Shown here: positions 32,193-35,434 of the stretch, in pieces
How the letters are laid out: the number at the start of each line of letters is the position of its first letter
Position numbering within the stretch: position 1 is the first letter of the stretch
Assembly (NCBI RefSeq): GCF_014925405.1
Contig: NZ_AQHJ01000022.1
Location: 186,001 to 250,000, forward strand
Direction of reading: 5' to 3'
Length of the DNA stretch: 64,000 nt
DNA from: Pseudoalteromonas ulvae UL12
GTDB taxonomy: Bacteria > Pseudomonadota > Gammaproteobacteria > Enterobacterales > Alteromonadaceae
Notes under the pieces: model-generated
Told to the model about the DNA's origin: nothing
The model's database searches: none
The model's input: the letters and a program-made list of their open reading frames with translations, nothing else
Translations under genes and position numbers: made by a program

Positions 32193-34130
32193 TTATCCTA
32201 TTAAATCAATATACTCTTGCTCAGTAAGAACTTTTACACCTTTATCTTTAGCTGCATTGATTTTTGTTTCACCAACTTTCTCACCTGTAACTAAGTAAGT
32301 TGTTTTACCTGTTACAGATTTAGCAACTTTAGCTCCTAGAGATTTAGCGTGTTTTTCCATATCTCCTCTTGATCCTTGTTGCATAGAACCAGTGAATACA
32401 ACAACTGAACCTGCAATTGGAGAAGATGAATTATCTCTTTCTGATTCTTTAGGCGTTTCAGCTAAGTTAAATCCAAGTTCATAAACTTTGAAGAACTCTT
32501 CTTTAATATTTGCGAGGCCTTCGACAATAGCTTCAGCACTGAGTTGAGCAAAGCCATCTATTTTAACCATTTCATCTGCTGTCAATTCAAATAACTGAGT
32601 GATTGTATGGTGTTGAAGTAGCTTTTCACAATTGCCTCCACCTAATCTACTGACCCCAAAAGCTGATAAGAAACGCCAATCCTCTATTTCAATTTCTCGA
32701 CTCGCTTTGAGTTGGTCAAATAAGTTTTGAGATGTTTTATCTCCAAACCCATAGCCAGCAAATTGATGCACTTTTATAGAGTAGATTTCATGAATATGTT
32801 TAACGCCAAAATTACTCAACTTTTCAATAACCTTAGGGCCAAAACCATCATTATTTCCTAACGTTTTGAAAAAGTGGATTAAGGTATTTTCTGTTTGTGC
32901 GGGACAATCACTTTTATTAGGGCAGATAAGGTGATCAGATTCCCATAGCAAGTGAGAATTACAACTCGGACATGATTCTGGTAATTGAGGATCAACCTTC
33001 TTAATTACTTTCTCAATCTTTGGAATAACTAGACCACTTCTAACAAGTTGTACAACGGCTCCAGGACCAACTCCGTTTGTTTTAACCATATTATAATGGT
33101 GTACTGTGACTCGGCTAATAGTTGCACCACTCAGCTTAGTAGGAACTAATTCTGCAACCGGTGAAATACGCCCTGTTCTGGAAGTTTGAGGTACAATATT
33201 TAAAACTTCGACTTCAGCAGAATCTTCATTTACTTTAAAAGCAATCTGCCATCTGTGATTTTTCCTTGTAGCTCCCATATACTCTTTCAAAGCTGTATGA
33301 GTTGTTTCAAGAATGACTCCATCGATATCGAAATCTACAGCCTTCCACATTTCTTCTACGATAGTCTCGAAGTTTGAAATGATTTCAGAAAAGTGTGCCG
33401 TGGTATTTTCTATTAATGCAAATGGATAAAATACACATGCGCCATCATCTATAGCCTTCTGCACATTTTCATCGACTTTCTTCTCTGCAATTATTGCAGC
33501 TTGAATGTTTCGAGAGTTTTCAAAAATATCGCTAAGTACAGTATCGAAATAACTCTTCTTAATCACAATTTCGCCAGGCCCTAAACCTCTATCGCCATTC
33601 TCGGCAACCTTTAATCCTCTTTCAAAGGCTCTTGTAATATCCTGACCTCTGTATCCATCTCCTCTAGTATACAGAGTTGTTCCATCATCGAATGCAGCAT
33701 ACCCATCAAGTTTAGGGGTTACTCTTAGTTTAATTTCTTCTTCTGAAACATTAATTTCTTGAGCTGCCTTTAAAATCCTTTTTAACCACTTTTCTATATC
33801 TTCTTTTGAATAAGCCTTCTCTGTTGAAAGCATTCTTTGTGGTAGCTCTACTGTTTTGGCTTCTGCCAGAACTTCAGGCTCAACTTGATTAAGATATGGG
33901 TGAAGATGATTTATATCCCTTAACATAGAAATATATAAATCATATTGTTCATCGGTTATGACTTGAATACCTTCTCGATAAAGAGCATTTGATGCTTTTA
34001 AGACTTGAACTAATTCTTCTGAATTTAAGTTTGATTTACTAAAAAGATTAGTTAAATCTTTTGAATTAATTTCTTTATCTAGATTTTTTAAAGTATCTAT
34101 TTGCTCATTTGTAAAATTGATTTCTAACAT
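32193..34130 (-). CDS. Island-encoded NAD-dependent DNA ligase
   Basis: A full-length (645 aa) but divergent LigA homologue. In order: NMN-binding Ia domain (YREGIQVITDEQYD, 51-64), nucleotidyltransferase with the adenylated Lys140 in KLDG, OB-fold (SRTGRISPVAELVP), a four-Cys zinc finger (CPSC ... CPNKSDC), helix-hairpin-helix (LGGGNCEKLL) and C-terminal BRCT (VVVFTGSM). Against E. coli LigA some catalytic positions look changed: TPK for ExK, DGVILE for DGVxxK. The ATG at 34130 has AAGGAG 8 nt upstream, and that site overlaps the stop of the truncated host ligA. It therefore looks built to be translated from the ligA message and to replace the gene its island destroys. Confidence 0.93.
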   Translation of the reverse strand: MLEINFTNEQIDTLKNLDKEINSKDLTNLFSKSNLNSEELVQVLKASNALYREGIQVITDEQYDLYISMLRDINHLHPYLNQVEPEVLAEAKTVELPQRMLSTEKAYSKEDIEKWLKRILKAAQEINVSEEEIKLRVTPKLDGYAAFDDGTTLYTRGDGYRGQDITRAFERGLKVAENGDRGLGPGEIVIKKSYFDTVLSDIFENSRNIQAAIIAEKKVDENVQKAIDDGACVFYPFALIENTTAHFSEIISNFETIVEEMWKAVDFDIDGVILETTHTALKEYMGATRKNHRWQIAFKVNEDSAEVEVLNIVPQTSRTGRISPVAELVPTKLSGATISRVTVHHYNMVKTNGVGPGAVVQLVRSGLVIPKIEKVIKKVDPQLPESCPSCNSHLLWESDHLICPNKSDCPAQTENTLIHFFKTLGNNDGFGPKVIEKLSNFGVKHIHEIYSIKVHQFAGYGFGDKTSQNLFDQLKASREIEIEDWRFLSAFGVSRLGGGNCEKLLQHHTITQLFELTADEMVKIDGFAQLSAEAIVEGLANIKEEFFKVYELGFNLAETPKESERDNSSSPIAGSVVVFTGSMQQGSRGDMEKHAKSLGAKVAKSVTGKTTYLVTGEKVGETKINAAKDKGVKVLTEQEYIDLIG

Positions 34131-34138
34131 TTCAATCT

Positions 34139-34144
34139 CTCCTT
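34139..34144 (-). promoter_or_regulatory. Shine-Dalgarno of island ligase, overlapping ligA' stop
   Basis: AAGGAG on the minus strand, 8 nt before the ligase ATG. It shares two bases with the TAA (34145-34143) that ends the truncated ligA frame, which favours translational coupling. Confidence 0.85.
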
Positions 34145-34158
34145 AATGAGCTACTAAA

Positions 34159-34175
34159 GAACTATTTATTAGTTC
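34159..34175. repeat. Palindrome near right end of island
   Basis: GAACTA-TTTAT-TAGTTC, inside the foreign tail of the truncated ligA, 44 bp from the attachment core. It could be a recombinase arm site. The left end has a different palindrome at 13089-13100. Confidence 0.3.
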
Positions 34176-34204
34176 TCTATTTGATAAATAATTGTGAATA
34201 TATG

Positions 34205-34223
34205 CAGGGGTCGCATTTACATC
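34205..34223 (-). repeat. Right attachment site and terminal repeat of island
   Basis: Read outward to inward on the minus strand: GATGT (34223-34219), AAATG, then CGACCCCTG (34213-34205), the inverted copy of the 9-mer at the left end. The core with its next base reads GATGTA, the hexamer that I recall as the Tn554 insertion core in radC. Confidence 0.75.
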
Positions 34224-35434
34224 ACCGGCACGGCGAATTATCACCGTATCACCAATTTTGACACCTAAGCGTTCAATTTCGTCTTGATTATGTAATGTCG
34301 CATTCGAGACAGTGACACCACCGACAAACACCGGCTCCAAACGGGCGACAGGGGTAATTGCGCCTGTGCGCCCAACTTGAAACTCAACATCCAATAATTG
34401 GGTGATCTCTTCTTGTGCAGGAAACTTATACGCAATCGCCCAGCGCGGAGCACGTGCAACAAAGCCTAAGGTTTGTTGCAGTGCTTTTTCATTAACTTTG
34501 ATCACCACCCCATCAATTTCATATTTAAGGGTACTGCGCCGAGTCATAATATCTTGATAATACGCCAATGCCTCATCTACGCCCGTCACCAGCTTCGTTT
34601 CTGGGCTCATGGGTAATCCCCAATCGCCGAGAGCTTGCAACTGCGCGTAATGATCATCCGGCACTACGCCCCCTTCAATAATGCCCATCCCATAGGCATA
34701 AAACATCAATGGGCGGTTGGCGGTCACTTTCGAGTCAAGTTGACGCAAGCTGCCTGCGGCTGCATTACGTGGGTTTGCAAACACTTTGCTGTCGTTTTTA
34801 AGCGCGTTTTCATTCATTTTATTAAAACCAGCGCTATCCATAAAGACTTCACCGCGCACCTCTAAGCGTGCCGGCACGGTATCTCCACGCAGTTTTAGTG
34901 GTACATTACGAATGGTTTTCACATTTTCAGTAATGTTTTCACCGGTTTGACCATCGCCGCGGGTAGCCGCTCTGACTAACACTCCATTTTCGTACAAAAT
35001 CGAGACAGCTAAGCCATCGAGTTTGGGTTCGCAGCAAAAGGTCAGTGTTGAGGTATCTTTTAATCTATCTTGCAAGCGCTTATTAAAGCTACGAAATTCT
35101 ACTTCATCAAACGCGTTATCTAAGGACAACATTGGCACTAAATGCGTGACTTGACTGAAATGACTCAGCGCTTCCCCACCCACTTTCTGACTCGGTGAGT
35201 CGGCGGTTAGTAAGTCTGGATGAGTCGTTTCAAGTGCGATCAGCTCTCGCATTAAACGGTCGTACTCAGCATCAGGAATGCTTGGGTTATCCAACACATA
35301 ATATTGATAATTGTGTTCTTCTAATTGGGTTTTAAGTGCTGTAATCGCTTCGGTGACTGCGTGTGTCATACTTACCTCGTGGACTGCCACATCCATACTC
35401 TTTTAATGGCCAATCATTGGCTTAAAATGAAAAA

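Follow-up and report, generated by a model that had tools for sequence, protein, structure and literature searches.

An island that splits ligA in Pseudoalteromonas ulvae carries a divergent DNA ligase likely to replace the enzyme it breaks

The stretch of Pseudoalteromonas ulvae UL12 DNA analysed here (64,000 nucleotides, contig NZ_AQHJ01000022.1, positions 186,001 to 250,000; hereafter the window) holds ligA, the host gene for the NAD-dependent DNA ligase LigA, in two parts, separated by an island that carries a divergent ligase of its own. ligA is essential for growth of E. coli, whereas recA, to which we return below, is not. From the sequence we consider it very probable that the island is a site-specific integrative element lodged inside ligA, and that its full-length ligase likely takes over essential nick sealing. 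Loci in other genomes are labelled L and genomes G.

ligA is split by an island that carries a ligase

The genes smc, zipA and ligA follow one another in this order on the minus strand, and the LigA reading breaks off after codon 393 (...RRAGDV), within the OB-fold, to pick up again at DVIPQIT about 21 kb away. The truncated ligA frame (34143-35396, minus strand) matches positions 2-377 of the 664 in the LigA profile NF005932 and the 3' part positions 376-664; the actual start of the gene may be an in-frame ATG near 35369. The intervening island spans 21.2 kb (13063-34217) and has a GC content of 0.348, against 0.42 on either side. GATGTA marks one of its junctions and GATGTG the opposite one, and its ends bear a 9-bp inverted repeat (CGACCCCTG / CAGGGGTCG), a length reached in 4 of 2000 shuffles. 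In two genomes of the same genus (G278, G400) ligA lies unbroken after zipA, and in 11 further genomes a broken ligA is adjoined by a ligase of the island kind. The drop in GC, the inverted repeats and this recurrence indicate that the split and the carried ligase did not come together by chance.

The ligase lies at the island end facing the ligA promoter, with the recombinase module at the opposite end (Table 1). Its start codon (from 34130) follows the stop codon of the truncated frame (34145-34143) after a gap of 12 bp. An earlier reading made from the letters of the window alone (the sequence-only reading) had described a LigA cut in two, a complete NAD-dependent ligase in the same orientation 12 bp past the truncated host frame, and an AAGGAG overlapping the stop of that frame; the profile matches to both parts, the coordinates and the domain matches bear this out, and the overlap (34144-34139) amounts to two bases. 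In all nine loci measured, the window included, the host frame runs on without a stop until 1-14 nt from the ligase start, and likewise, by eye, in G336; shuffled tails give such an open frame in 0.4-7% of cases each (six distinct tails, which are related and not independent). The arrangement suggests that the ligase would be carried on the host ligA transcript and translated by coupling. A terminator-like hairpin stands between zipA and ligA (35434-35454), so that ligA may have a promoter of its own rather than that of zipA.

Table 1. Coordinates in the window of the ligA parts, the island ends and the island genes.
Feature	Position	Strand	Basis
3' part of host ligA from DVIPQIT on (zinc finger, HhH, BRCT)	12187..13062	-	profile matches
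Left island end; inverted repeat CAGGGGTCG at 13077-13069	13063..13077	-	sequence
Four-gene recombinase module, left end of island	13210-18944	+	family matches and alignments
Large module protein, 636 aa, probably degenerate recombinase	13210..15120	+	no HxxR pair; K465, R467, Y500 conserved
Large tyrosine-recombinase-like protein, 680 aa	15027..17069	+	R422, K451, H554, R557, Y591 invariant in 7 rows
Small module protein, 184 aa	17066..17620	+	module alignment
Tyrosine recombinase, 443 aa, module marker	17613..18944	+	R221, K256, H333, R336, H374, Y383 invariant, 8/8 rows
Hachiman HamB-like helicase (20035-22353) and 234-aa neighbour without match	20035..23050	-	family matches
Type I restriction-modification (HsdR, HsdS, HsdM) and WYL-domain regulator	23053..29784	-	family matches
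Two small overlapping genes, toxin-antitoxin-like, weak matches	29914..30511	+	PF09722 below cut-off; PF01451 above, partial profile
PIN-domain protein	31043..32134	+	PF16289
Island ligase: divergent NAD-dependent DNA ligase, 645 aa, KxDG lysine K140, four zinc cysteines	32193..34130	-	profile matches, alignment
AAGGAG, ribosome-binding-like site of ligase, two bases shared with stop of truncated frame	34139..34144	-	sequence
Element tail in frame with ligA: 24 codons and stop; inverted repeat CGACCCCTG at 34213-34205	34143..34217	-	sequence
5' part of host ligA, codons 1-393 (N-terminal domain, adenylation domain, part of OB fold)	34218..35396	-	profile matches

No intact LigA in the examined genomes with the island-type ligase

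A collection of species genomes was scanned with six exact peptide patterns, which catch close relatives only, and 35 ligase loci of 66-92% identity were recovered. The link between the ligase and the ligA junction put forward in the sequence-only reading held in 33 of the 35, where the ligase sits at the zipA-ligA locus; the other two are L038, which begins at a contig end, and L023. The ligase follows a truncated ligA in 10 loci (L008, L013, L014, L017, L018, L019, L022, L024, L031, L033), ligA remnants in L007 and L029, and zipA without ligA in 21. The start of L033 matches, by eye, the end of L042 on another contig. zipA is itself weakly conserved: L022, L024 and L029 have no zipA match, yet ligA sequence is present. 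Among genomes found later, zipA lies upstream of the ligase in G336, G345 and G144.

We then consider which other ligases these genomes encode. A PF01653 search of the P. ulvae genome, a draft of 34 contigs, found two genes, the truncated ligA and that of the island ligase, and no intact LigA. A PF01068 search found a single gene, whose best PDB matches are small ATP-dependent ligases and which opens, read by eye, with a hydrophobic, signal-like stretch; it resembles the small LigE-type enzymes, and the protein is likely periplasmic and not replicative. The sequence-only reading, which needed no second ligase elsewhere doing the essential work, agrees with both searches.

LigA status was scored in 34 of the 35 genomes with ligase loci (all except that of L013; several are drafts or metagenome bins). 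Intact LigA was present in none. A truncated LigA frame, 362-433 codons long, remains in nine, and in the other 25 no LigA adenylation domain is found outside the island ligase; retention of the ligase where no LigA domain is left likely means that an essential gene has been displaced repeatedly. From the order, 394 genomes were drawn separately and related ligases taken at E <= 1e-100, which gave 17 carriers, 14 at 64% identity or more (the P. ulvae genome included) and three at 35-37%. LigA was checked in the other 16 carriers and in 14 genomes without the ligase, all 30 at least 90% complete. It can be seen that intact LigA is missing from all 13 genomes with a close ligase, two of which (G071, G091) have a PF01653 gene of 497-498 codons that scores far lower and is LigB-like by length. 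Exactly one intact LigA (676-716 codons) was found in each of the 14 relatives without the ligase. Four genomes are common to the two sets (identical ligase), giving 1 + 34 + 9 = 44 distinct genomes with an island-type ligase, in none of which LigA is intact. Together with the zipA-ligA survey, this absence supports the earlier proposal that the element would replace what it breaks.

The 35-37% ligases (L164, L165 and L166, in G078, G109 and G132) were rejected as members of the same group: all three genomes keep an intact LigA (683-707 codons) and the three form a separate clade in the tree described below. The sole ligase found in Alteromonas sp. KUL49 (L039, 10001-11823) looks frameshifted, likely through sequencing error.

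The island ligase keeps the LigA domain order and is under purifying selection

The island ligase matches adenylation, OB, zinc-finger and BRCT families, the zinc-finger and HhH matches lying below curated Pfam cut-offs, and its adenylation, OB and BRCT parts, KxDG lysine and four zinc cysteines place it in the NAD-dependent DNA ligase superfamily. Domain order, the KxDG motif, the zinc cysteines and the predicted fold are as in canonical bacterial LigA. In 42 of 42 aligned ligase rows the KxDG lysine, RGDG, the residues at host positions E183 and R210, DG 295-296, K324 and the zinc cysteines are invariant, and island-type ligases keep 62 of the 126 listed host-invariant positions. The best structure matches of the predicted protein are E. 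coli and other LigA enzymes, most rows spanning the adenylation, OB and BRCT parts and barely covering the first 90 or so residues. The AlphaFold2 model has a mean pLDDT of 80.4 and a pTM of 0.49, so that domain placement is unsure.

For the seven of nine pairs in which dS is finite, dN/dS of the ligase is 0.04-0.20, dS exceeding 2 in two of these, and we conclude that the ligase is under purifying selection. The longest exact word common to the ligase gene and host ligA is at most 11 bases, and the best matches of the ligase gene to both target sites are about equal to the level in shuffled sequence. The spare ligase may be divergent so as to escape being hit by the element or recombining with ligA.

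Two other sources of relatives were considered and rejected. Plasmid ligases were at most 43% identical among the best 20 of 216 records, which does not favour a plasmid route, and of viral contigs, 12 stretches fitted a search pattern and none encoded a relative.

A four-gene recombinase module and two landing sites in ligA

The residues R221, K256, H333, R336, H374 and Y383 of the 443-aa protein used as module marker are presumably the tyrosine-recombinase catalytic set. The marker is rare: of 3085 candidates scored, taken from 5.8 billion proteins, 17 are homologues at E <= 1e-5. It occurs in three of the 394 genomes of the order (P. ulvae, G336 and G185), all with a truncated ligA, and in eight of the 34 ligase genomes, which are exactly the eight that hold both ligA parts; across the class, the recombinase profile found only the P. 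ulvae genome of 369. The order of the module next to the 3' ligA part is kept in six of six genomes with stretches long enough to score (G007, G010, G011, G012, G015, G024; those of G017 and G026 are too short). The metagenome bin G002 has the 5' ligA part and neither the 3' part nor the recombinase. More distant modules of similar make-up, with two large genes, a small one and further genes, were seen at L188 (G078, 1383-7830) and L189 (G035, 9876-16545).

Insertion has occurred at two places in ligA: site A, after ...QVGRTGA (about codon 346), in L008, L017, L018, L019, L022 and G336, and site B, after ...RAGDV (codon 393), in the window, L013, L014, L024, L031 and L042. Different sites are used by two Acinetobacter species and likewise, within one genus, by the window and G336. 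Elements with the GGTGTCACC end read GVT... at both sites, indicating that the element tail is read in one and the same frame from site A and from site B. Seven of eight end pairs have inverted repeats of 8-12 bp, the exception being L022/L079; the ends of L014, L022 and L024 are on different contigs.

Descent of the ligase and probable decay of the broken gene

A midpoint-rooted tree was built from 55 rows (10 host LigA, 42 island-type ligases and three distant ligases), with the short L039 and L041 and exact duplicates such as L018 left out. Host LigA falls apart from the island-type ligases, and the three distant ligases lie next to the island type. The 11 rows beside a truncated ligA require at least eight changes on the tree, so the splits are scattered among the carriers labelled ligA-less, a label of 28 rows that also takes in L023, L038 and rows from the 394-genome draw whose position was not inspected.

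Island-like tail DNA was detected upstream of the ligase in seven of 20 ligA-less or remnant loci (p < 0.01, 300 shuffles) and not in the other 13, and an eroded 5' ligA precedes the ligase in G144 (on a single contig), L007 and L029. The 5' part is damaged further by a stop and a frameshift in L007 and by a frameshift in L013, and is reduced to short remnants in L029 and G144. These states could be ordered as a fresh split, then erosion, then the ligase alone, the last step presumably running in this direction.

Proposed mechanism and alternatives

We propose that the four-gene tyrosine-recombinase module would insert the element at one of two conserved OB-fold spots in ligA, the junction being about 6 bp long with a short inverted repeat on either side. 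The start, transcript and ribosomes of host ligA would then run in frame into the short element tail, which ends beside the ligase start, so that, by coupling, ribosomes on the host message would go on to translate the new ligase, which would likely take over essential nick sealing at the moment of insertion. Its gene is so unlike ligA that it offers no target-like site and would hardly recombine with ligA. The broken halves and the island may later decay or be deleted, leaving the ligase as the resident replicative enzyme. The sequences themselves show the broken ligA, the ligase in the island, the lack of an intact LigA, the recurrence in other genomes, the module, both sites and the open frame; from these we infer that the element is mobile, that its ligase is expressed, through coupling, and serves growth, and which way decay has run.

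The divergent ligase might instead be an old resident later captured by islands, or ordinary homologous displacement might have brought it to ligA, with the islands secondary. Most carriers are indeed island-free (26 of 34 without the recombinase) and a midpoint root gives the tree no direction. However, the island-tail DNA in seven of 20 island-free or remnant loci, the eroded ligA that precedes the ligase in L007, L029 and G144, the mixing of host families in the tree (for example Acinetobacter within Alteromonadales-type rows) and the plasmid-borne and phage-type kin of the ligase all speak against such an origin, which we regard as unlikely. It is less likely still, and by a wide measure improbable, that the split LigA works on as two subunits and the island ligase is mere cargo. 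A two-subunit NAD ligase is known from phage PR1 (9hu3), it matches the island ligase in two pieces that meet near residue 378, near site B, and both ligA parts are open frames in the eight genomes that have both. Against this, 25 of 34 genomes lack a LigA adenylation domain other than that of the island ligase, L007, L013, L029 and G144 show further damage to the 5' part, and site A cuts deeper into the OB fold. An assembly artefact fusing two loci, for which the draft state of the genome might speak, can practically be dismissed, since the 5' part, ligase and 3' part share one contig in four other genomes, at distances of about 24, 47, 47 and 72 kb, and a further species of the genus has its ligA split at the other site.

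Several observations weigh against replacement of LigA by the carried ligase. The enzyme scores below the LigA equivalog cut-offs (314.2 against 444.45 for TIGR00575 of NCBIfam, 313.2 against 369 for NF005932). All 42 aligned rows have glutamate (E275 in the window ligase) in place of the motif-IV lysine (host K300), a residue of importance in E. coli LigA; the three distant ligases have glutamate or aspartate there, and in the island ligase lysine stands for host R218. With about 25% identity to host LigA and a position nearer to plasmid- and phage-type ligases, the island ligase differs in these respects from canonical LigA, and the island-type ligases are a subfamily whose active site, judged from the alignment, is changed. 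At the level of the locus, neither zipA nor ligA lies within 10 kb of L023 on a complete chromosome, and G382 has no zipA or ligA upstream of the ligase and no zipA or smc within 4 kb. In Photobacterium (L042) the frame stops after 13 codons, far from the ligase start, which is the sole exception to the coupled geometry, and Acinetobacter tandoii has no clear inverted repeat. A promoter scan gave 10 sites where 11.7 were expected by chance, that is, no signal above chance. Finally, several of the calls of LigA absence come from drafts or metagenome bins. We nevertheless hold to the replacement of LigA by the carried ligase at the strength given at the outset.

Relation to elements in recA

The only plasmid match of the recombinase marker is on a Pseudomonas putida megaplasmid (NZ_CP047312.1), which is conjugative and bears an element running from 499819 to 15950 across the origin of the record (L179-L181). 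The four-gene module, whose products are annotated as hypothetical proteins, has the same order there, with 27-34% identity in the matched parts, and stands beside the 3' part of recA. At the other end of the element are a complete recA and then the 5' part (codons 1-165), which is 79% identical to the complete copy, and CTGCAG is found at the break in both recA halves. This element differs from the ligA island in its target, recA on a plasmid, and in its other cargo. The related plasmid pTTS12 of P. putida S12 has a module remnant followed by ISPpu21 (L187, 214963-218083 of the record), and no recA is annotated nearby in the fetched stretch.

Elements that split recA have been described in Vibrio as recA mobile elements (RMEs), at 494 bp (codon 165) in V. 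cholerae S24 (PMC4405046) and at 491 in V. parahaemolyticus 090-96, where the recA pieces overlap by 6 bp (PMC4334540). In the portions of these two reports drawn on here, RMEs share with the island a site-specific insertion into a housekeeping gene, a complete divergent copy at one end, the integrase at the opposite end, short inverted repeats at the termini, 9 bp long in V. cholerae as in the window, and low GC, and are about 30 kb long. They differ in that RMEs lie inside recA, and those portions contain no description of a permanent takeover such as we propose for ligA. The replace-what-you-break strategy that the sequence-only reading thought little described was thus already published for recA islands. 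The homologous recombinase module of the recA-splitting P. putida element suggests that recA and ligA elements likely form one class, the comparison covering the P. putida recombinases.

By make-up, the nearest described module is that of the GInts, genomic islands in which four recombination genes, ginABCD, are all required for movement (PMC5385486). As far as the portion of that report used here goes, GInts are site-specific and, like the island, have four genes at one end, three recombinase-like (one of them degenerate) and one small; the small gene is fourth in GInts and third in the island, and the likeness is one of make-up. Staggered cuts of 6-7 nt were proposed for GInts, which have direct imperfect repeats (attL, attR); the GATGTA and GATGTG at the two sides of the window island are possible equivalents. 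A link to Tn554 by way of a GATGTA core was considered and set aside. Their target genes are probably not fully inactivated, and that portion of the report mentions neither recA nor ligase. GMT (gamma-mobile-trio) islands are marked by the proteins GmtX, GmtY and GmtZ. The label GMT-like given in the sequence-only reading could not be upheld, as no NCBIfam model named GMT matched the recombinase genes up to E 10, the presence of GMT models in the library being unconfirmed.

No report of an element targeting ligA was found among the listed titles and abstracts of open-access papers. What appears new is that the target is an essential replication gene with two in-frame landing sites, that a recA element and the ligA elements have homologous modules, and that the takeover is likely permanent. 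An essential, universal gene would be an ideal landing site for an element that carries a spare, and ligA would extend this rule to a replication enzyme. More broadly, we find it fairly likely that one recombinase class has given rise to elements whose targets are genes of core DNA maintenance (recA, ligA) and whose cargo includes a spare copy, itself no target and not prone to recombination. Each insertion would swap the enzyme and the swap could turn permanent; on this reading, at least nine named gammaproteobacterial genera would have had their replicative ligase replaced by a mobile-element enzyme and the element later lost. LigA, often considered universal in bacteria, is split or lost in many Gammaproteobacteria, where a very different ligase likely does its work, and such islands could take over an essential replication enzyme of the cell. 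The series of fresh splits, eroded halves and ligases alone makes the displacement of essential housekeeping genes directly testable.

Other contents of the island and window

The 636-aa module protein gave no match in a Pfam search and the 184-aa protein none in a family search. Two small genes without an assigned family lie between the recombinase module and the HamB-like helicase with its 234-aa neighbour, a pair that also comes after the ligase in L014. Downstream of ligA the window contains 14 tRNA genes (7190-9528), made up of a five-gene Ala/Glu cluster and nine tandem tRNA-Val genes.

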